Shown: positions 4,939 through 58,674 of the stretch, in pieces | Position numbering within the stretch: the stretch's first letter is position 1 | Layout: each line of letters opens with the position of its first letter | NCBI RefSeq assembly: GCF_002161765.1 | Contig: NZ_NFIN01000001.1 | Coordinates: 124,001-188,000, forward strand | DNA length: 64,000 bases | Direction of reading: 5' to 3' | Origin: Bacteroides sp. An322 | GTDB lineage: Bacteria; Bacteroidota; Bacteroidia; Bacteroidales; Bacteroidaceae | The notes under the pieces: model-generated | What the model was told of the DNA's origin: nothing | Databases searched by the model: none | The model's input: the letters and a program-made list of their open reading frames with translations, nothing else | Translations under genes and position numbers: made by a program

Positions 4939-6882
4939 TTAATTCTTCATTCTCAATTCTTCATGTTCAAGCGAAAGATTTTCCCATTCGGTTTCAGCTT
5001 CAGCTATCTGCTTTTTCAAGACCTGATGAGCTTCATAGAGTTTCATATCAGAAGCTCCTTCGGGAGTTGCCATTCTGGCTTCCAATTGAGCAACTTGTTC
5101 CTCCATATCACCGATAGAGTTTTCCAAACTCTCAATCTGTTTCTCCAACTTACGGATTTTGCGGTTCAACTCTTTTTGAGCTTCATACGAAAGTTTACCT
5201 TCGCTTGCAGGTTCTTTTTCTTCTTTTTCCTTCGGCTTGGAAAACGATGAAGAAAGTTGCAACTCATTCAAATTTTCCATATTTTTCTTTTGAAGGAAAT
5301 CGTAAATACCCCCAATATGTTCTTTCACCAAACCACCTCCAAACTCATACACTTTAGTCACTAAACCATCAAGGAACTCGCGGTCATGAGAAACAACAAT
5401 CGCTGTACCGTCAAATTCACGGATAGCGTCTTTCAATACATCTTTCGAACGCATATCCAAATGGTTGGTAGGCTCGTCCAATATAAGTAAGTTCACCGGT
5501 TCAAGCAGGAGCTTTATCATTGCCAACCGGCTCCTTTCACCTCCCGAAAGCACTTTTACCTTCTTGTCAGAAGCCTCGCCTCCAAACATGAATGCCCCTA
5601 AAATATCACGTATCTTCAACCGGATATCCCCTTTGGCTACTTGGTCAATCGTATCAAATACTGTCAGATTCTCATCCAACAATTGTGCCTGATTTTGTGC
5701 AAAATACCCTATTTGCACATTATGCCCAATAGTCAATTTCCCCTCAAAAGGAATTTCATCCATAATGCATTTCACTAACGTTGACTTTCCTTCGCCATTC
5801 TTTCCGACAAACGCCACTTTCTCTCCTCGATGAATCGTCAGATTTACATCGTGAAATACGACATGGTCCCCATACGCTTTTTTCAAATTCTCACATATTA
5901 CCGGATAATTACCCGAACGAATGGCAGGAGGAAATTTCAAGCGCAAGGCAGAAGTGTCTTCCTCATCAATTTCGATAGGGACAATCTTTTCCAATTGTTT
6001 GATACGGCTTTGCACCTGTACGGCTTTAGTGGCTTTATAGCGAAAGCGTTCGATAAATTCTTCGGTGTCTTTTATTTCTTTCTGCTGGTTTTCGTAAGCA
6101 CGAAGTTGCTGTTCCCGGCGTTCTTTCCGAAGAACGACAAACTGGTCGTAAGGCACTTTGTAATCGTAGATATGTCCGCAAGAGATTTCAATAGTACGAT
6201 TGGTTACATTATTAATAAAAGCCCGGTCGTGACTTACTAGCACAACGGCTCCCGGTTCCATTTTCAAGAAATTCTCCAACCATTGAATACTCTCAATATC
6301 CAGATGATTGGTAGGCTCATCTAAAAGCAAGACATCCGGATGACGCAACAAAAGTTTTGCCAACTCAATACGCATACGCCAGCCTCCGCTAAATTCACTT
6401 GTAGGGCGGTCAAAATCAGAACGATTAAAACCTAACCCCACTAAAGTACGCTCGATTTCTGCTTTATAATTTGTGCCTCCCATCATCAAAAAGCGTTCAT
6501 TTTCATGCGTAAAACGGTCTATCAATTCATGATAACTTTCCGAATCATAATCTGTACGATCAGCAAGTTCTTGATTCATTTTCGCTAACCGGTCTTGCAT
6601 CTCGAAAATATGTTCAAATGCCATTTCAGCCTCAGCCCTTACCGTACGTGTGTCGCTCAATATCATAACCTGAGGCAAATATCCAATGGTTATTCCCCGT
6701 TGAACAGCAACAACTCCTGCAGTAGGATGTTGAAGCCCGGCAAGAATCTTCAGCATCGTAGATTTTCCTGCACCATTCTTGCCGACCAAGGCTATACGGT
6801 CTTTCTTATTGATGACAAATGAAACATTTTCGAATAACGGAGTCACACCAAACTCCACCTTCAAACTTTCTACAGAAATCAT
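4939..6882 (-). CDS. ABC-F family ATPase (Uup/EttA-like)
   Basis: Cytoplasmic protein with two ABC domains and no membrane segments. Members of ABC-F act on the ribosome in translation or give resistance to ribosome-targeting drugs. The first nucleotide site has GKNGAGKST (residues 34-42) and signature FSGGW; the second has GKNGEGKST and LSGGERSRLAM; both domains have LLLDEPTNHLD-like Walker B motifs. A charged linker separates the domains, and a long C-terminal coiled coil (about residues 565-647) resembles that of Uup. It is the first gene of a probable two-gene transcript with the M13 peptidase. Which ABC-F subfamily it belongs to cannot be decided without alignment. Confidence 0.88.
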   Translation of the reverse strand: MISVESLKVEFGVTPLFENVSFVINKKDRIALVGKNGAGKSTMLKILAGLQHPTAGVVAVQRGITIGYLPQVMILSDTRTVRAEAEMAFEHIFEMQDRLAKMNQELADRTDYDSESYHELIDRFTHENERFLMMGGTNYKAEIERTLVGLGFNRSDFDRPTSEFSGGWRMRIELAKLLLRHPDVLLLDEPTNHLDIESIQWLENFLKMEPGAVVLVSHDRAFINNVTNRTIEISCGHIYDYKVPYDQFVVLRKERREQQLRAYENQQKEIKDTEEFIERFRYKATKAVQVQSRIKQLEKIVPIEIDEEDTSALRLKFPPAIRSGNYPVICENLKKAYGDHVVFHDVNLTIHRGEKVAFVGKNGEGKSTLVKCIMDEIPFEGKLTIGHNVQIGYFAQNQAQLLDENLTVFDTIDQVAKGDIRLKIRDILGAFMFGGEASDKKVKVLSGGERSRLAMIKLLLEPVNLLILDEPTNHLDMRSKDVLKDAIREFDGTAIVVSHDREFLDGLVTKVYEFGGGLVKEHIGGIYDFLQKKNMENLNELQLSSSFSKPKEKEEKEPASEGKLSYEAQKELNRKIRKLEKQIESLENSIGDMEEQVAQLEARMATPEGASDMKLYEAHQVLKKQIAEAETEWENLSLEHEELRMKN

Positions 6883-51329: not shown

Positions 51330-51392
51330 AGATTCTTTCCAACATTCCGATACTTTTTCCCCGTTTATTTTCATTATTCTAAAAACTTTTCT

Positions 51393-51400
51393 TATCTTTG
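51393..51400 (+). promoter_or_regulatory. Orphan -7 box TATCTTTG pointing into the junction
   Basis: TATCTTTG on the plus strand is followed only by a three-codon frame (ATGGATAAT TAA) and then by sequence without a gene. It may be the promoter of a chromosomal gene displaced by the mobile element, or belong to a short RNA. Confidence 0.4.
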
Positions 51401-51546
51401 GTTATGGATAATTAAAAAAGCTGTATCTGATTGATACACAGAATGGAATTGAAGAGTGTGAGATTTTAGGTAACGATTTAGCGACATTCAGAACGCTCTG
51501 ACTTGCTGCGGTTTACCTCATAGATTCAAACAACTCTTTCGTATTT

Positions 51547-51556: not shown

Positions 51557-51681
51557 ATTTTTTATCCCATAGCACCAAATCATTACCTATTTTTTAGGGA
51601 TATTGCCGTTACCTCGTTCTGAAAACGGCTTCCGGCTTGATGTGCGTAAGCCCATTTCAGAAACGGCACAAGCAAAGAAAA

Positions 51682-51729
51682 GCCCACGACGACCACAATG
51701 TCACAAGTGACACCGCCATCGTCGTGGGC
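51682..51729. terminator. Strong hairpin near the element end
   Basis: GCCCACGACGA (51682-51692) pairs perfectly with TCGTCGTGGGC (51719-51729). Within it TGTCAC-AA-GTGACA (51699-51712) forms a second perfect stem. A T-rich stretch (CTTCTTTTAT) follows on the plus strand. It could insulate the chromosome from the element. Confidence 0.7.
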
Positions 51730-51752
51730 ACTTCTTTTATATGCTTGTGCAG

Positions 51753-51768
51753 AACGGACAAGTCCGTT
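51753..51768 (+). terminator. Short hairpin AACGGAC-AA-GTCCGTT with T-run
   Basis: A perfect 7-bp stem with a 2-nt loop followed by TTAT and a pyrimidine-rich tract, typical of an intrinsic terminator on the plus strand. Confidence 0.6.
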
Positions 51769-52200
51769 TTATCCATTTTCTTTTTCTCGTCTTCTTTTGG
51801 CAGCCGAAATGCCGCCGGATGCAGGGCACGGCAAGCGTGAATCTGCACCTGCGACTATTTCCGGCTGTCATGTCTTCCCTGTCCTCAAACCGTCTTGCCA
51901 TGCTTTTGCCAAACCGGGCATGGCAGACAAGACCGTTTGAAGACATGTGCCGTCGGCAGAAAACTTGCAACCGCAAGCCATGCACGCATGACAATGACGG
52001 TTGCAGGACTTCTGTCACGGCGGCAGGAAAGCGGGGCTTTCCCCTTGTCCGTTGCGCCGCCCTTTGAACTTCCCCGTGGCGCATTGCGCCATCCTCTATG
52101 CTTCCCCTTTTCCTTCCCGCCTCTCCAGCAAGTATGCCGATATTCCCATGCCGCCATTCCAGACGGCATCAGTGGGTCATTTTCGTTGCAGGGGCAAAGG

Positions 52201-52455
52201 TAAAGACGGGATTAGGAACACAAATTTTTTAGCCACAATCTCCACACTTCGCAAGCTCAGGTAGTATTCTGTCGTAAAAATTTGCTGAACCTACTCCCTA
52301 ACCTTTGCATGGCCCCCGAAACGAAAACGACCGATGCGCGGTCGGAAGACGTCACAAGGAAACATCGGACATACGGAGAGGCGAAAAGAAAAAGGACTCG
52401 ACCCGACCTCCCCATCCGAGCAAGACAAGTAACAACAACTTAAAAATTGGAAGAT
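52201..52455 (+). other. Leader region of the accessory cluster
   Basis: This 255-bp stretch has no gene that I trust. A promoter-like TAACCTTTG (52299-52307, one base longer between TA and TTTG than consensus) with TTTG at 52281 could start transcription of the accessory genes, leaving a leader of about 140 nt. On the minus strand TTACCTTTGC at 52194-52203 also resembles a promoter or an attachment core. The frame open from 52305 is rejected as a gene start because it changes character after 52686. Confidence 0.35.
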
Positions 52456-52674
52456 ATGAGAATGACATTGAACGATATCGGAAAGGCTTTGCGGAAAGTA
52501 TTGTCCGCAGTAGCGAGAGCGGCATGGGGCATTACCCTTTGCGCAGGAGGTTTGGCGGTAGGCATCGCAGAGGAAATCCTATTGGGCGTGTTGAACTTCA
52601 TGTTCGGCATCCTCACCGCACTACTTTCAATAGTGACAATTATTTGGACATTCATTTGGTTATTAACCCTTTAA
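52456..52674 (+). CDS. Small hydrophobic ICE protein
   Basis: A 72-aa protein starting MRMTLNDIGKALRKVL, with an amphipathic, basic N-terminus and two hydrophobic stretches (WGITLCAGGLAVGIAEEILLG and FGILTALLSIVTIIWTFIW). It is probably an inner-membrane protein. I do not recognise a function. It is first in the plus-strand accessory cluster; the TTG at 52447 is a less likely start than the ATG at 52456. Confidence 0.6.
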   Translation: MRMTLNDIGKALRKVLSAVARAAWGITLCAGGLAVGIAEEILLGVLNFMFGILTALLSIVTIIWTFIWLLTL

Positions 52675-52685
52675 TTCATAAGGAT

Positions 52686-52907
52686 ATGGCGAAAAGAAAC
52701 AGCAAGACGGCAGCGCAGCAATGCAGGTTTTACGAGGTGGACAACATCTTTGAGTATATGGTGGAAACGTACATCAACGGCAATTTCAGCACATTCCGAG
52801 AAATGTACAAGGAGTTGTGCAAGGATGCAAGAAAGGATTTCATAGACTTTCTTTTAAGCGAGGTAGAGCCAGTCTATTGGAGAGAGATTTTGAAAGAAAC
52901 CATTTGA
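52686..52907 (+). CDS. Small charged ICE protein, unknown
   Basis: A 73-aa soluble protein, MAKRNSKTAAQQCRFYEVDN onward, ending VYWREILKETI. The ATG at 52686 is 11 bp after the previous stop, which fits operon spacing better than the far-upstream frame start at 52305. Predicted all-helical. No family recognised. Confidence 0.6.
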   Translation: MAKRNSKTAAQQCRFYEVDNIFEYMVETYINGNFSTFREMYKELCKDARKDFIDFLLSEVEPVYWREILKETI

Positions 52908-52929
52908 CGACCCTTTAAGACAGAAGATT

Positions 52930-53526
52930 ATGAGAACGGAAACAAGGACATACAATGTTTATAAGGTGGACGAGCTTTCATTCACGGCAAAGGAAAATGC
53001 TTACAACCGATGGTTGGCAGGGTATGAATATCCGTGGCAGAGCGAGAACATGGCAACGCTGAAAGCCTTTGAAGGCATATTCAACATACGTGTATATGAT
53101 TGGAGATATGACGGCTGCACGTGTTACTACCGTTTCACCTCCAATTACAGCGAGGAAGAGGAAGAACTTTGCGGTGTGCGGTTATTGAAATTCATCGTGA
53201 ACAACTATTGGCACAGCCTTTTCAAGCCCAAGACCTATTGGCACGGAAAGGACTTCAACAAACAACGCAGAAGCCGCATATCCGTAACCGAGGATTGCGT
53301 GCTGACAGGCTATTGTGCTGACATGGACATCCTGAAGCCCATATACGACTTTCTGAAAGCACCCGACAAGCATACGAACCTGCATGACCTTATGGACGAG
53401 TGCATCGGCAGTTTCTTCCGCTTTTGCAGCAGGGACGTTGAGGATTGCATCGATGAGGAAGCCTTCGAGCATGACTGCGAAGCCAACGGATATGAATTCT
53501 TATCAGACGGAACACTTTTCAACTGA
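52930..53526 (+). CDS. ICE accessory protein of unknown function (198 aa)
   Basis: Soluble protein rich in aromatic residues and cysteine (YDGCTCYYRF, WHSLFKPKTYWHG, CIGSFFRFCSRDVEDC) with an acidic C-terminus. The acidic, aromatic composition could suit a DNA mimic such as an antirestriction protein, and genes in this position of Bacteroides elements are sometimes called so, but I see no ArdA or KlcA motif. No signal peptide or membrane segment. It starts 22 bp after the preceding gene. Confidence 0.7.
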   Translation: MRTETRTYNVYKVDELSFTAKENAYNRWLAGYEYPWQSENMATLKAFEGIFNIRVYDWRYDGCTCYYRFTSNYSEEEEELCGVRLLKFIVNNYWHSLFKPKTYWHGKDFNKQRRSRISVTEDCVLTGYCADMDILKPIYDFLKAPDKHTNLHDLMDECIGSFFRFCSRDVEDCIDEEAFEHDCEANGYEFLSDGTLFN

Positions 53527-53533
53527 CAGCCTT

Positions 53534-53782
53534 ATGAACAGGACAACGGAAAAGATACCCACATGGAGTTTGGGGTACATCATCAACGGTGACATGACGG
53601 GACTGACGGACGAGGAAATCCGCATGATTGACGAGTGGCAGAGCAAGTGGAACGTGCAGATTGTCTCACCCCTTACGGACGAAGAAGGCAACGCACAGCC
53701 CTATTTCTCACGTTATCCCCTTTTCGGACTTCCAGCCGAAGTGGAGGACTGCGACATACTTTACACGAATGACAACATCTAA
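53534..53782 (+). CDS. DUF6926-like small protein
   Basis: An 82-aa protein starting MNRTTEKIPTWSLGYIINGD, with TGLTDEEIRMIDEWQSKWNV and PYFSRYPLFGLPAEVEDCDI, resembling a Bacteroidetes family I recall as DUF6926. Function unknown. The ATG at 53534 lies 7 bp after the previous stop codon; the longer frame begins inside that gene and is rejected. Confidence 0.6.
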   Translation: MNRTTEKIPTWSLGYIINGDMTGLTDEEIRMIDEWQSKWNVQIVSPLTDEEGNAQPYFSRYPLFGLPAEVEDCDILYTNDNI

Positions 53783-53793
53783 AATCTGACGAT

Positions 53794-54210
53794 ATGAACA
53801 AGACAACAGACCATTTCAAGCGTACAATCCAAGCCTATCTGGACAACCGTGCAGCGGAGGACAAACTGTTTGCAGCAAATTACAACAAGCCTAACAAGAA
53901 CATGGAGGATTGCGTGACCTATATCCTCAATTGGGTACAGAAAAGCGGCTGCAACGGCTTTACGGACGGTGAAATCTATTCCCAAGCCGTCCACTACTAT
54001 GACGAGGACGACATTGAAGTGGGCAAGCCACTGCAATGCCAAGTAGTCGTGAACCATACGGTAGAACTGACTGACGGGGAAAAGGCGGAAGCACGGCAGC
54101 AAGCCATCCGCCAATACCAAGCCGAGGAACTGCGCAAGTTGCAGAACCGCAACAAGGCTAAGGCGAGCCAAAAGACAAATGTACAACAAGTTGAACTCTC
54201 ATTATTCTGA
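53794..54210 (+). CDS. PcfK-like protein
   Basis: A 138-aa protein related to PcfK of the enterococcal plasmid pCF10 gene cluster, a family found next to PcfJ-like proteins in Bacteroides elements. It starts MNKTTDHFKRTIQAYLD and contains NMEDCVTYILNWVQKSGCNGFTD-like sequence (about 40-62) and a basic, Gln-rich C-terminal helix (EELRKLQNRNKAKASQK). Role in transfer unknown. Next gene (pcfJ-like) begins 4 bp after its stop. Confidence 0.75.
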   Translation: MNKTTDHFKRTIQAYLDNRAAEDKLFAANYNKPNKNMEDCVTYILNWVQKSGCNGFTDGEIYSQAVHYYDEDDIEVGKPLQCQVVVNHTVELTDGEKAEARQQAIRQYQAEELRKLQNRNKAKASQKTNVQQVELSLF

Positions 54211-54214
54211 ACTT

Positions 54215-55549
54215 ATGAAACCAAAGACATCCATACAGAAAGAAATCATCCGTTTGAGCGCAAACCTGCCCGAACTGACAGACGCACAGAGAACCTACGC
54301 TTTCCGACATTGCTTCAAGCACTACGGCAGACGAACGGCAAAAGGTATCATCACCTGCACGGAGTGCGGACACGCATGGAAAAGCGGACACAGCCTTGCC
54401 GACACCCTTTGCGGATGCTCCTGCCCGAACTGCGGAACGGCATTGGAAATCGTGGACACCCGAAAGAGGGTGTTCACGGATAATGAGTATTTCTCTATCC
54501 TCGCCACCTGCAAAGGCTACCAAGTGATACGTTTCTTTTTCGTCAGAAGCCGTCAGAAAGTCGGGCAAAAGGCGGAGTATTCTATCTGTGAGGTGGTACA
54601 ACGGTGGATAGCCCCCGACGGCAAGTCCGAGACGGTGGCACGGCTGCGTGGCATGTCTCCCCTTTACTATGACTTGTGGGTTGAGGACAGCCCGATGGAA
54701 ATCCGCAAGAACAACCAACATAGGGTGTACGACATAGACCCGATATGCACCTACCCACGTCAGCGGATTATCCCCGAAATCAAGCGTAACGGATTTGACG
54801 GTAACCTGCACGGCATACCGCCTTACAGCTTATTCACGGCTATTCTTTCAGACAGCCGTGCGGAAACCCTGATGAAGTCGGGCAACATCGAGCATTTGCG
54901 CTATTTCCTCTCCAAGCCGCAAGCACTTGACAGGTGTTGGCACTCGTACAAGATAGCTATGCGGAACAAATATGCCATAACCGACATTTCATTATGGTGC
55001 GACCTTCTATATCTGTTGGAGAAATTGGGAAAAGACTTGCGCAACCCCCATTTCATTTGCCCGACCGACCTCAAGGCGGCTCACGACCGATATATGGAGA
55101 AACGGCAAGCCCAATTGGAGCGTGAACGGGAACGGCGGCGCATGATATGGGAAGCCGAGCGGTTGGAGCGTGAGCGGAAGCGTTTGGAGGATATGGCGAA
55201 AGAGAAAGACGAGTATATCCGAAAGAAAGCCGCTTTCCTCAACCTTGTACTGACGGACGGACTAATCATTGTAAAGGTATTGCAAAGCGTGGATGAGTTT
55301 TACGAAGAAGGGAAAGCCATGCACCATTGCGTCTATACCAATGCTTATTACAATGATGAAAACTCTCTGATACTGTCCGCACGGATTGACGGAAAGCGCA
55401 TCGAGACGGTGGAGGTGGACTTGCTAACACTGAAAGTGGTACAAAGCCGTGGCGTATGCAACTCCAACACCGAATACCACGACCGTATCATCAAATTGGT
55501 GGAGGACAATGCCGAGCAGATACGGCAGCGGATGAAGCAGGTGGCATAA
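54215..55549 (+). CDS. PcfJ-like protein
   Basis: A 444-aa protein. Residues about 40-80 hold a zinc-ribbon-like region (CTECGHAWKSG, then CGCSCPNCGT). A long charged helix rich in Arg and Glu (about 285-345) separates it from the PcfJ signature, GKAMHHCVYTNAYY and EVDLLTLKVVQSRGVCN, in the last 110 residues. The family accompanies conjugation genes, but its job is not established. I start at the ATG at 54215 (MKPKTSIQKEI) because the longer frame would overlap pcfK by 32 bp. Zinc and nucleic-acid binding is an inference from the ribbon. Confidence 0.8.
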   Translation: MKPKTSIQKEIIRLSANLPELTDAQRTYAFRHCFKHYGRRTAKGIITCTECGHAWKSGHSLADTLCGCSCPNCGTALEIVDTRKRVFTDNEYFSILATCKGYQVIRFFFVRSRQKVGQKAEYSICEVVQRWIAPDGKSETVARLRGMSPLYYDLWVEDSPMEIRKNNQHRVYDIDPICTYPRQRIIPEIKRNGFDGNLHGIPPYSLFTAILSDSRAETLMKSGNIEHLRYFLSKPQALDRCWHSYKIAMRNKYAITDISLWCDLLYLLEKLGKDLRNPHFICPTDLKAAHDRYMEKRQAQLERERERRRMIWEAERLERERKRLEDMAKEKDEYIRKKAAFLNLVLTDGLIIVKVLQSVDEFYEEGKAMHHCVYTNAYYNDENSLILSARIDGKRIETVEVDLLTLKVVQSRGVCNSNTEYHDRIIKLVEDNAEQIRQRMKQVA

Positions 55550-55576
55550 TCGTATAACAAACTAATAGTTAATGAT

Positions 55577-55834
55577 ATGGAAGTGAAAATAGAAAATATG
55601 ATTTTCGGATGGCACGAGGAACTGCCCGAAATGTTCATCGAACTGTTGAACACGCTTGTGCTGACAAAGAACGAGCAGGATGTAAGGGGTGTAATGGAGG
55701 TGTTCGCCCGAAAGGAACTTTTCAATGTCCTTTTCGCCTTTGGGTATGGCGCACACCATTTATGGGTGACGCAGAAGAAGGCATCCGACCCCGACCAATG
55801 TTTGGAGAACAGACTACTGATTGTTGAATTTTAA
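55577..55834 (+). CDS. Small ICE protein, unknown (85 aa)
   Basis: Soluble protein MEVKIENMIFGWHEELPEMF to LENRLLIVEF, predicted helical with no motif that I know. It lies 27 bp after pcfJ and 11 bp before the DUF3873 gene, so it is part of the same run. Confidence 0.6.
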   Translation: MEVKIENMIFGWHEELPEMFIELLNTLVLTKNEQDVRGVMEVFARKELFNVLFAFGYGAHHLWVTQKKASDPDQCLENRLLIVEF

Positions 55835-55845
55835 TTGATAAGGCT

Positions 55846-56067
55846 ATGACAACGAGAATGACCATTAACGGAGTAAGCACCTGCCAAGCGGCAGGAACGG
55901 AGAAATACGAGAGTTTCCAAATGAGTATCGGCAGGAAAAGGCGCACTTTCGTGCAATACGACTACCGCCATACGGACGGAGAGTTGTTCTCCTGCGTGAA
56001 GCCCACGCTGGACGAGTGCAGGCGGTTACGTGACGAATGGATTAAAACGAAGGAGGACAGGCTATGA
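55846..56067 (+). CDS. DUF3873 family protein
   Basis: A 73-aa protein with the family's core MTINGVSTCQAAGTEKYESF and QYDYRHTDGELFSCVKPTL, found in Bacteroides conjugative elements. Function unknown. The next gene starts within its stop codon (ATGA overlap). Confidence 0.75.
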   Translation: MTTRMTINGVSTCQAAGTEKYESFQMSIGRKRRTFVQYDYRHTDGELFSCVKPTLDECRRLRDEWIKTKEDRL

Positions 56068-56309
56068 CAGCAGGCTATGACACGCTGATTGTGACATTCA
56101 GCGACCCCATTTGTGTGTTGGACAGAATGTTTGCCGATGCGGACGCATGGGGAACTGACACCCTCAAAGGATGGGTGGAGGACTATGAAAGTACGAGGTT
56201 TACGCAAATAAACGAGCATACGGCAGTCATCACTTCCGAATACAACATGCCCTGCGTAAAGGAATGGCTCACACACTGTACGACTATCGCTGATATGAGA
56301 GAATTTTGA
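56064..56309 (+). CDS. Small ICE protein, unknown (81 aa)
   Basis: MTAGYDTLIVTFSDPICVLD to TTIADMREF. It overlaps the DUF3873 gene by 4 bp (ATGA), which supports translation as a coupled pair. It has a beta-alpha pattern but no known motif. Confidence 0.6.
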   Translation: MTAGYDTLIVTFSDPICVLDRMFADADAWGTDTLKGWVEDYESTRFTQINEHTAVITSEYNMPCVKEWLTHCTTIADMREF

Positions 56310-56367
56310 GTGCGTGGCGGTGGACACCACCGCCCACACTTCCAACACCATTAAAAGAGAAGGCATC

Positions 56368-56574
56368 ATGAAATACTATTTTATACTGACAGACGGCAAG
56401 GACGCATGGATGCAGTTCGTTTACCTCCCTTCGGGAGACTATGTGTCCGGCTATATCCGTGACCTGCGGAGCGTGGGAATATCCGTGCATGACTATGACC
56501 TTTGGACAAAGGACACACGCCCCATTGCCGAGCGTACCCTTGAACGCATACAGAAGCGTATAATGGCAGGATGA
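56368..56574 (+). CDS. Small ICE protein, unknown (68 aa)
   Basis: MKYYFILTDGKDAWMQFVYL to RIQKRIMAG. I use the ATG at 56368 because the 54 bp before it (in the longer frame) encode an unlikely N-terminus. It is last in the accessory run and is followed by the hairpins at 56605-56726, where it meets the tra operon. Confidence 0.6.
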   Translation: MKYYFILTDGKDAWMQFVYLPSGDYVSGYIRDLRSVGISVHDYDLWTKDTRPIAERTLERIQKRIMAG

Positions 56575-56604
56575 CCCTTTGGCGGGTGGCAGGAATTGCC
56601 GCCC

Positions 56605-56647
56605 GCTACTTTCTTTCATGAGCAGGACAGGCGGATAAGAAAGTAGC
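56605..56647. repeat. Inverted repeat GCTACTTTCTT/AAGAAAGTAGC
   Basis: A perfect 11-bp inverted repeat (56605-56615 and 56637-56647) with a 21-nt loop. Just before it, GCGGGTGGC and GCCGCCCGC (about 56583-56605) pair with one bulge. It lies in the convergent gap between the accessory cluster and the tra operon. Confidence 0.75.
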
Positions 56648-56684
56648 AAAGAAACCGTTACTTTCCATCTTCGATAATATGGAA

Positions 56685-56726
56685 AAATCCGATGAAGTCA
56701 CAAAAGGCACCATCGGATTTTGTTTG
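56685..56726. terminator. Terminator between accessory cluster and tra operon
   Basis: AAATCCGATG (56685-56694) and CATCGGATTT (56711-56720) form a perfect 10-bp stem with A- and T-rich flanks, placed 20 bp after the end of the lysozyme gene on the minus strand. Confidence 0.85.
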
Positions 56727-56746
56727 TTGTACAGCCAACCATAGCC

Positions 56747-57268
56747 TCACGGCTCATACAGCAGCAGGAACTCCATTTTGCGCCGCCGCTCTATCGAGCG
56801 GACGGTTTTGCCCTTGTACCGGCAGTAGGCTGTGTATTCACGGTAAATGTCCCTGTTCCCGGCTTCCAGCTTGCGGACAAGCCCGCTTTTCGGATGCCCG
56901 CCATGACCGAGCAGTACCCCTTGCCCTACGTTGTAGCTTAGGACGGTCAGGAGCAAGGCGTCTTTTCCATACTTGCGGAACAGCCTGTAACGCACCGCCA
57001 AATCCTTGCGGAGCAGGGCTTCCGCTTCCGCCTCCGTCATACCGTAGGACAGCTTCTCGTTCGGCAGCCTGCGGTGTCCGTAGCCGTAATACGGGTAGTC
57101 GGAACGGTCATGCAGCCCCTCGTATTTTTTCACCAGTTCGACGGCAATGTCGGCTTTCGGGTGGCTGTTGAACAGCGCCAGCAGCCGTGCCGTTTCATCC
57201 GTATGCTGTGCCGGCAGGCTGCCACAGAGGGCAGCCGCCAGCAGCAGGAGCAACGCCTTGCGCATCAT
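56747..57268 (-). CDS. Exported GH24-like lysozyme
   Basis: Probable lytic enzyme of the transfer apparatus that opens the peptidoglycan for the mating channel, comparable in role to VirB1. It has a signal peptide (KALLLLLAAALCGSLPAQ) and the phage-lysozyme-like segment VELVKKYEGLHDRSDYPYYG followed by GYGHRRLPNEKLSYGMTEAEA; the Glu in KKYEG is the likely catalytic acid. It is 173 aa from the ATG at 57268, which overlaps the traQ stop as ATGA; MRK at 57265 is equally possible. Last gene of the tra operon. Confidence 0.8.
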   Translation of the reverse strand: MMRKALLLLLAAALCGSLPAQHTDETARLLALFNSHPKADIAVELVKKYEGLHDRSDYPYYGYGHRRLPNEKLSYGMTEAEAEALLRKDLAVRYRLFRKYGKDALLLTVLSYNVGQGVLLGHGGHPKSGLVRKLEAGNRDIYREYTAYCRYKGKTVRSIERRRKMEFLLLYEP

Positions 57269-57756
57269 CGGCTGACGTTCAAGGTGTCCGACACCGCCAC
57301 ATCCGCATCCGAGTCGTTGTTGAACTCGACTTCCCACTCGAAGGCATTGCCGAAATTGTCCTCCACCGTGATGGTCAGGCTCTGCGACTCGTCGCACTCC
57401 GAGGTGTAATACAGGCGGAACTTCTCGTTCTCCAACAAGTAGCGGTCGTTGGGCAGGAATACCAAGCCGTTATCCAGCTTCAGCGTGCCTTCGCCGTCAA
57501 ACTGGAAGTAGCGGATGGTATAGACCGCCCCGTCAAACTCACCCTCACGCACCAGCTCGCAGCGTATCTCCGCCGTTTCGCCCTGCGCCAGTTCCTTCGG
57601 CACGGGCATGGTCTCCACCGTGAACGGGTAGGCTTGCGTCACGTCCAGCCCGTCGTCGCAGGCGGTGAAGCCTATGGAGAGCATACCCACGCAGAGGGCA
57701 GCAAAGGTTCTTACTATGTTTCTTTTCGCTTTTTGGTTCAATTTATTCATGTTCAT
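57265..57756 (-). CDS. traQ: Conjugative transposon protein TraQ (DUF3872)
   Basis: A 163-aa exported protein, probably a lipoprotein or periplasmic (SIGFTACDDGLDV, with Cys at about 33). The rest is a beta-rich, Ig-like domain (ETAEIRCELVREGEFDGAVY, YYTSECDESQSLTITVEDNFG). It matches the TraQ/DUF3872 family of Bacteroides conjugative transposons by position and sequence. The role in mating is unknown. It follows traP by 6 bp and overlaps the lysozyme gene by 4 bp. Confidence 0.85.
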   Translation of the reverse strand: MNMNKLNQKAKRNIVRTFAALCVGMLSIGFTACDDGLDVTQAYPFTVETMPVPKELAQGETAEIRCELVREGEFDGAVYTIRYFQFDGEGTLKLDNGLVFLPNDRYLLENEKFRLYYTSECDESQSLTITVEDNFGNAFEWEVEFNNDSDADVAVSDTLNVSR

Positions 57757-57762
57757 AATCTG

Positions 57763-58674
57763 TTATAGTCTGATGGATTTGTTTTTCTTTTCGTTCTCGC
57801 TTTGAGCCTGCCTTTCGGCAAGCACCCTTTGCAGGTGCTCGTTCAAGTCCTTGCACCCGTCATAAATGCCGGAGCAGTTCGATACCCTATCGCCGTAACG
57901 TGCAAGCAAAGCCCCCAGCGTCCGCCGTCCGGCTTCGTCATTGTCAAGGTAGCACTTTATCCGCCCGTAGCCGTCCAGATGGCGGTACGCCCTCGCCACG
58001 TTGGACACCGAGTTGAGCACGAGGTGGTCTTCCTTGCCGCCGATGCCCAGCGCACGGGCGGAGAGGTAGTCCATGAAGCCCTCGTACACGTTGCAGGTCG
58101 CCGAGCCGACCGACAGCAGGGTCACGTCCTTCGGCGGCACGCAGCCCTTGAAGAACGGGTTGCGTATCTCGTAGCCGCCGCCTTCGTTGCCGAAAGCCAC
58201 GGCGAAATACCGCTTGCCGTGCGTGGTGTAGCGCATCTCCTTGCAGTTCGCAATGGCGACGGCGGACGGTATGCCCCTCTCTTGCAGGTAATGGAGCAAC
58301 GCCCGGTTCTGTAAAGGCAGCACCTCCACATCCTCGAAGCTGTGTCCGTCGGAACGGTGCGTATCAACGGCATTTTGCAGCTTATGGTCCTGTACCGGCA
58401 TACCCGCCACTTCCGCCACATACCTCGCTTGCGTGAGGAAGTCGCCCGTCTTGATGAACTCCCCGGCAAGGGCGAAGATGTTGCCACCCTTGCCTTCGCC
58501 GAAGTCAAACCAGAGGTTTTTCTCCGGGTTCACCTTGAAAGAAGGCGTCTTCTCCTCCCGGTACGGCGACCTGTACCAAATTGCATTGGCACGCCTTTGC
58601 ACGGGATGATGTCCCAGCCGGGCGAGGAAGTCCTCTATCGGAAACCGTTTCATCGCTTCTATGTCCATAGGCAT
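57763..58674 (-). CDS. traP: TraP primase-like protein (Toprim)
   Basis: A 303-aa protein with the layout of a small DNA primase: an N-terminal zinc-finger-like part, where NAIWYRSPYREEKTPSFKVN matches the CHC2 primase block but lacks its cysteines, then GEGKGGNIFALAGEF, and a C-terminal Toprim domain with VYEGFMDYLSA and IKCYLDNDEAGR. It may prime the complementary strand in the recipient. Loss of zinc ligands is odd and is discussed as an observation. It starts 3 bp after traO. Confidence 0.85.
   Translation of the reverse strand: MPMDIEAMKRFPIEDFLARLGHHPVQRRANAIWYRSPYREEKTPSFKVNPEKNLWFDFGEGKGGNIFALAGEFIKTGDFLTQARYVAEVAGMPVQDHKLQNAVDTHRSDGHSFEDVEVLPLQNRALLHYLQERGIPSAVAIANCKEMRYTTHGKRYFAVAFGNEGGGYEIRNPFFKGCVPPKDVTLLSVGSATCNVYEGFMDYLSARALGIGGKEDHLVLNSVSNVARAYRHLDGYGRIKCYLDNDEAGRRTLGALLARYGDRVSNCSGIYDGCKDLNEHLQRVLAERQAQSENEKKNKSIRL

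Follow-up and report, generated by a model that had tools for sequence, protein, structure and literature searches.

The window analysed here is a stretch of 64,000 nucleotides from Bacteroides sp. An322 (positions 124,001 to 188,000 of contig NZ_NFIN01000001.1, which is 266.8 kb long). Ten plus-strand open reading frames (ORFs; g1 to g10) were found head to tail at 52456-56574, with spacers of 4-58 bp and one 4 bp overlap, and the genes opposite them on the minus strand gave Pfam matches to phage-lysozyme-like, TraQ and primase-like proteins (table 1). An initial annotation of this DNA had described a packed, same-strand run convergent with the transfer (tra) operon, which was confirmed by the ORF coordinates and by the Pfam matches of the facing genes; it had named only PcfK and PcfJ within the run, whereas Pfam also matched DUF6926, DUF3873 and DUF6956. 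No significant Pfam or NCBIfam match was obtained for g1, g2, g3, g7 or g10. A longer frame of the PcfJ gene opens at 54179, and since its Met13 was invariant among 20 PcfJ relatives, PcfJ probably starts at 54215. Non-synonymous divergence (dN) was below synonymous divergence (dS) wherever both were estimable (34 of 35 comparisons of g1-g10 with four sister operons), and on these sequence comparisons g1-g10 are under purifying selection. Together with the order and sequence kept across genera, this argues that the ORFs are more than chance frames.

Table 1. Features of the ten-gene run and its surroundings (positions in the window).
Feature	Position	Strand	Basis
Left end of the mobile element, shared core TTATCTTTG, junction with proA promoter region	51392-51418		empty site
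Operon leader, ~120 bp (AATCTCCAC..GGTAGTATT..CCCTAACCTTTG..GAAACGAAAACGACCGA)	52225-52345	+	alignment with distant elements
g1, 72 aa, hydrophobic C-terminal part, probable membrane protein	52456-52674	+	ORF, hydropathy, homologues in sister elements
g2, 73 aa, best-kept small protein of the run	52686-52907	+	homologues, sister elements
g3, 198 aa, phrog_10310 family	52930-53526	+	PHROG E 2.7e-39, phage homologues, AlphaFold2 model
g4, DUF6926	53534-53782	+	Pfam E 2.7e-40
g5, PcfK-like	53794-54210	+	Pfam E 3.3e-57
g6, PcfJ-like, Zn-ribbon N-terminal half, GNAT-like C-terminal fold	54215-55549	+	Pfam E 7.9e-40, AlphaFold2 model, VIA
g7, 85 aa, function unknown	55577-55834	+	conserved neighbour
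g8, DUF3873	55846-56067	+	Pfam E 1.7e-35
g9, DUF6956	56064-56309	+	Pfam E 1e-40
g10, 68 aa, function unknown	56368-56574 (or GTG start at 56314)	+	ORF, homologues
Convergent junction, defence-cargo slot in sister elements, empty here	56575-56749		anchor spacing, PADLOC
3' end of tra operon: lysozyme-like, TraQ, primase/toprim	56747-58674	-	Pfam

Judged from its junctions and gene content, the run sits in a CTnDOT-like integrative and conjugative element (ICE) of about 55 kb, at about 51.40-106.41 kb (counted past the window), and begins ~1 kb inside the left end of this element. An empty site was found in a genome of the same genus (G016, locus L014), in which the proA side runs straight into the opposite flank; in the alignment the left flank ran to position 1527 of L014 and the right flank began at 1501, giving an overlap of 27 bp. 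TTATCTTTG was present at both ICE junctions and TATCTTTG at the crossover in the empty site, and the junction core agrees, except in its first base, with the GTANNTTTGC-type insertion core of CTnDOT-like ICEs. Candidate ends at GCAAANNTAC (51547 and 106088), then GATTTTAGGTAACGA, were ruled out by the empty site. A tyrosine recombinase with Arm-DNA-bind_5, Phage_int_SAM_5 and Phage_integrase domains is encoded at 104.8-106.1 kb (L005:834-2066, minus strand), and the transfer genes were identified by Pfam (P-loop_TraG, E 3.1e-207; TraQ, E 2.7e-58; Relaxase, E 2.5e-31; YWFCY, E 4.1e-50), with a ParA-like TraA also encoded past the window. A hybrid histidine kinase and a sigma-54-type response regulator, resembling RteA and RteB, lie side by side. 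Conjugative transposons of the CTnDOT/CTn341 type have a tra operon ending in TraQ, a relaxase, a YWFCY coupling protein, a tyrosine recombinase, two-component regulators and a TTTG-type insertion core. These features are common to both, whereas the cargo and the exact right end differ, and the likeness is one of features, not of alignment. The tra genes point leftward from ~70.9 kb and the relaxase genes rightward from ~71.5 kb; on this gene order the origin of transfer (oriT) is expected near 71 kb, in the 650 bp gap separating traA from the relaxase genes.

Within 1.1 kb upstream of g1, distant ICEs aligned only to 52228-52338, and an alignment of 25 sequences of this leader contained 54 invariant columns. 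With at most 2 substitutions allowed, the leader core GAAACGAAAACGACCGA precedes 38 of 48 related operons, and it is present in operons lacking g3 too. Exact copies of this 17-mer occurred in 12 of 295 genomes of the order, compared with 2 for a reversed control, and when at most 1 mismatch was allowed in seven whole genomes, 17 of 20 matches preceded a DUF6956 gene that shares their strand. A conserved RNA or single-stranded DNA structure was also considered for the leader and rejected (RNAalifold -1.63 kcal/mol, no two-sided changes). Folding of the leader DNA against shuffles, examined with a promoter active on single-stranded DNA in mind, was at chance level in the window and in L057 and strong only in L050 (z -5.1), and an Rfam scan returned one chance match below threshold only. 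The lack of a shared fold suggests that the leader acts as a promoter or operator and not as an RNA, and a by-eye search of the leader for a canonical Bacteroides -33/-7 promoter found none with the right spacing.

Conservation of the operon was followed in two sets of loci. The first (the g3 set) comprised 43 loci encoding a relative of the 198-aa protein g3 in one-per-species genomes; most of these keep g2, PcfK, PcfJ and g7 in order and many also DUF3873 and DUF6956, g2 being 55-100% identical in 33 of the 43. Where the loci were long enough, lysozyme, TraQ and primase genes again face the operon, and the order is retained in Bacteroides, Parabacteroides, Prevotella, Alistipes, Porphyromonas and others. 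For the second, a survey for DUF6956 yielded 49 places in 29 of 251 genomes of the family to which the window belongs (control, 0 of 14 well-known genomes), and the 48 places other than the window's own had the same layout, with or without g3 (seen in L195, L196 and the second operon on L183). Plasmids also carry the operon. Prevotella-type ICEs carry, between pcfK and pcfJ, a 176-aa gene for the antirestriction protein ArdA (Pfam E 1.7e-21 and 2.7e-24); among the 43 loci of the g3 set it was complete in 12 and a fragment in one more. A different sub-family has ardA at the head of the operon, 140-142 bp past the leader core (9 of the 48 DUF6956 loci), and the leader before it is recognizably the same as that in the window. 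On one contig (L183, also L191; genome G430), two copies of the operon face each other ~6.7 kb apart, each by a partial lysozyme match.

The convergent junction behind the operon was delimited by the last gene of the run and the lysozyme gene, anchors that are 179 bp apart in the window and up to 5.3 kb apart in sister ICEs. With PADLOC at E <=1e-3, a match was obtained in 18 of 24 distinct filled slots tested, compared with 0 of 10 chromosomal proteins of the window, a small control. The family slot set contributed 16 slots longer than 700 bp out of 41 distinct ones (13 tested, 8 matched) and the g3 slot set 15 slots longer than 1 kb out of 22 informative ones (12 tested, 11 matched); one locus is common to both (L046 = L196), hence the total. 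L191 (the same stretch as L183), L081 (a false anchor) and loci ending before the slot were dropped from the slot set; L059, L060 (ORF start identical to L061), L073, L194, L200 (like L198) and L216 were outside the PADLOC count, and a methylase pair in L048 was excluded as lying beyond the lysozyme gene. The slots contained Hachiman HamAB (L057), a TIR effector with a CBASS cyclase (L190), HerA and SIR2 (L058, L070), AbiEi-AbiEii (L076), PD-Lambda-3 (L062), Lit-like peptidases (L046/L196, L050), ThsB-like and caspase genes (L077, L218, L063), bSEFIR (L185) and others. Weak or generic matches were AbiP in L205 (E 1.7e-5), an AAA ATPase in L174, a lone methyltransferase in L202, an intron reverse transcriptase with a mad2-like gene in L178, Ppl-like genes in L061 and L065 and a Stk2-like gene in L063. 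By its contents across the sister ICEs, the convergent end of the operon is a site at which predicted defence systems are swapped in and out, and none is present in the ICE of the window.

Exchange was also seen within the operon. Sister ICEs with 95-99% identity to the window in the surrounding sequence diverge sharply from it at 52.9-54.85 kb, a block in which g3 is present, absent or replaced. Against L195 and L192, residues 1-200 of PcfJ contain blocks down to 22-50% identity and the rest is 90-100% identical; in L199 and L193, pcfK and most of pcfJ differ from the window. Among 29 operons giving 52 close pairs (g7 and g9 at least 93% identical; the pairs are not independent events), the N-terminal half of PcfJ was below 60% identity in 14 pairs, its C-terminal end was also divergent (<60%) in 10, and PcfK was below 85% in 10. 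The N-terminal half alone was swapped (C-terminal end at least 85%) in just 2 of the 14 divergent pairs, so that an N-only swap was rejected as the general pattern and a constant C-terminal half holds for some exchanges only. Relatives of PcfK and PcfJ also occur in phages.

The AlphaFold2 model of PcfJ (predicted local distance difference test, pLDDT, 88.4; predicted template modelling score, pTM, 0.65) consists of a Zn-ribbon part and a C-terminal part. For residues ~346-456 all 50 listed VIA matches were GNAT or GNAT-like (best Z 8.7, root-mean-square deviation 3.2 A over 106 residues); with Foldseek, 1yre_B was matched at a probability of 1.00 but an E-value of 0.081, and lower E-values belonged to unrelated folds at low probability. 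The acetyl-CoA loop of GNATs reads Q/R-x-x-G-x-G/A. PcfJ has Q422-S-R-G425-V-C, in which Q and G are invariant in 20 sequences and the last position, C, is off this motif; the model ends before the last GNAT strands. The resemblance of the C-terminal half of PcfJ to GNAT acetyltransferases is given as a lead from the predicted model.

Relatives of g3 were found by tblastn in 35 of 50,697 phage records (E <=0.1), with 42.5% identity in Brevibacillus phage Sundance and about 30% in Chi-like Salmonella phages, in 2 of 72,556 plasmid records and in 35 viral contigs. The phage proteins collected in phrog_10310, which g3 matches over its full length, are of unknown function, and the full-length member in the window sits in an ICE. 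In three mapped phages the relatives lie amid small hypothetical genes, 2-5 kb from the end of the record. Clusters shared among the phage neighbourhoods of g3 relatives came from near-identical phages, and neither PcfJ nor ArdA was found nearby. One viral contig (L091) also encodes a weak relative of g2 (2640-2810; 33% over 57 aa, E 3.7e-5), 2.2 kb upstream of its g3 relative (5001-5633). The initial annotation had looked to structure prediction of the 198-aa protein; the AlphaFold2 model was confident (pLDDT 92.1, pTM 0.80) and had no match in the PDB (best Foldseek E 1.2, best VIA Z 2.7), a result that does not establish a new fold. A viral library gave five matches at E <1e-3, none with a function. 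Among 55 sequences of the family Thr126, Gly127 and Asp131 are invariant and Cys123 nearly so (CxLTGxxxD motif).

The run is tentatively interpreted as an accessory establishment operon of the CTnDOT-like ICE, whose link to anti-defence is one of association. The ten genes would form one transcript, with the single conserved leader driving the set and firing in the recipient. The fixed members (g2, pcfK, pcfJ, g7, DUF3873 and DUF6956) would serve the element after transfer, and the exchangeable interior (g3, DUF6926, ardA and the pcfK-pcfJ alleles) would handle recipient barriers such as restriction or other immunity. In PcfJ the variable Zn-ribbon half may recognize a target and be coupled to the GNAT-like half; g3 more probably binds a protein, most likely through the conserved C123-x-L-T126-G127-xxx-D131 surface and not by DNA mimicry. 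In these ways g3 and PcfK-PcfJ may counter host defences.

Several observations weigh against this interpretation. None of the ten proteins matched an anti-defence family in Pfam, NCBIfam or PHROG, ardA is missing from the operon of the window ICE and from most sister operons, and g3, absent from 41 of 47 distinct sister loci of the DUF6956 set (window excluded), is optional. The operon is near-universal in the ICE family, which fits a core role in conjugation or maintenance equally well. The anti-defence role proposed in the initial annotation is supported by association, with ardA in sister operons as the strongest evidence, and not within the run itself; the cargo that gathers beside the run in sister ICEs, which it had overlooked, is defence, not anti-defence. 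Its argument that clusters at the end entering first or last are often anti-defence islands found no support, since transfer starts at oriT and not at the integrated end, and the expected oriT lies 14-19 kb away from the run on the tra side or 36-41 kb on the other.

Less probable, although the strongest of the competing explanations, is a donor-side auxiliary operon, needed in the donor, whose proteins tune tra expression, exclusion or mating-pair stability. Exclusion proteins are often small membrane proteins, which g1 resembles, and the near-constant presence of the operon at the 3' end of tra in the ICE family would fit; the operon nevertheless has its own leader, on the strand opposite to tra, with ardA behind the same leader in sisters, and g3, PcfK and PcfJ have relatives in phages, which do not conjugate. 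A bolder form of the establishment reading, and an improbable one, is that PcfK-PcfJ and g3 make up an unrecognized counter-defence system, in which PcfJ would read a host factor through its swapped Zn-ribbon half and act through a constant GNAT-like half, the leader would be switched on in the recipient, and ardA would be one interchangeable tool. It is similarly improbable that PcfK-PcfJ is a maintenance module, with the two proteins acting as a toxin-antitoxin-like or replication-linked pair to retain the element or its excised circle. The two genes do form a cassette with a 4 bp gap whose alleles are exchanged together, and the GNAT fold suggested for PcfJ is used by some toxins, but the GNAT-like part is without strands after the third helix, which makes catalysis doubtful, and neither PADLOC nor Pfam gave a toxin match. 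Purifying selection on g1-g10 and the same order across genera make ordinary cargo, kept by hitch-hiking and with no role in transfer, more doubtful still, even though every member is of unknown function and g3 and DUF6926 come and go.

The initial annotation had called the 198-aa protein aromatic and acidic and a possible DNA mimic. Its aromatic character was borne out (17.2% F/W/Y), and its acidity is mild rather than strong (pI 4.87, net charge -12). Net charge was -2 to -13 (mean -7.6) in 38 ICE homologues and -4 to -27 (mean -14.2) in 35 phage homologues, the latter thus being more acidic, compared with -31/-32 for two ArdAs encoded beside g3 homologues and -32 to -38 in a further measurement of ArdAs from sister ICEs. 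Only 11 of 35 acidic positions stay acidic in at least 70% of the 55 sequences, conservation centres instead on the CxLTGxxxD motif, and no member of the family had a significant Pfam match to PF07275 or another antirestriction profile. From charge, conservation and the lack of a family match it is concluded that g3 is very improbably an ArdA- or Ocr-like DNA mimic.

The run and the junction slot have partial counterparts in known systems. Defence hotspots have reportedly been described in a study of Pseudomonas genomic islands and are said to be known in phages and satellites as well; the likeness lies in a fixed slot between conserved genes with changing defence systems, whereas the slot described here is the convergent end of tra and a leader operon in a Bacteroidales ICE. 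Plasmid leading-region anti-defence islands adjoin oriT on the first-entering side (Samuel et al. 2024, PMC11541004). They share with the run small genes of unknown function, ArdA relatives, a promoter region of their own and a conjugative element, and differ in that the run is separated from the expected oriT by 14-19 kb, lies past the tra operon and has ArdA in sister ICEs only. In the open-access literature searched on this topic no description of the operon, its leader or the defence slot was found, and the junction slot for defence, the exchangeable N-terminal half of PcfJ and the predicted GNAT-like C-terminal half are put forward here as new. Through Bacteroidales ICEs, genes spread in gut and oral communities, and little is known of what lets these elements settle in new hosts. 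With ardA behind it in sister ICEs, the leader would offer a way to list candidate anti-defence genes in Bacteroidales, and the junction behind the operon is a place to look for defence systems.

Two further features of the ICE were noted. A strong imperfect palindrome, A-rich before and T-rich after, lies at 51666-51750, 260 bp inside the left end; the region 51640-51770 folds as RNA at -54.2 kcal/mol (z -7.75), resembles a two-way terminator and is kept in sister ICEs (e.g. L046, L056, L211 and L217). Several minus-strand ORFs at 83.2-91.1 kb (L003 19.2 kb to L004 7.1 kb), judged by eye to resemble fimbrillin/Mfa-like lipoproteins, belong to the cargo of the same ICE.

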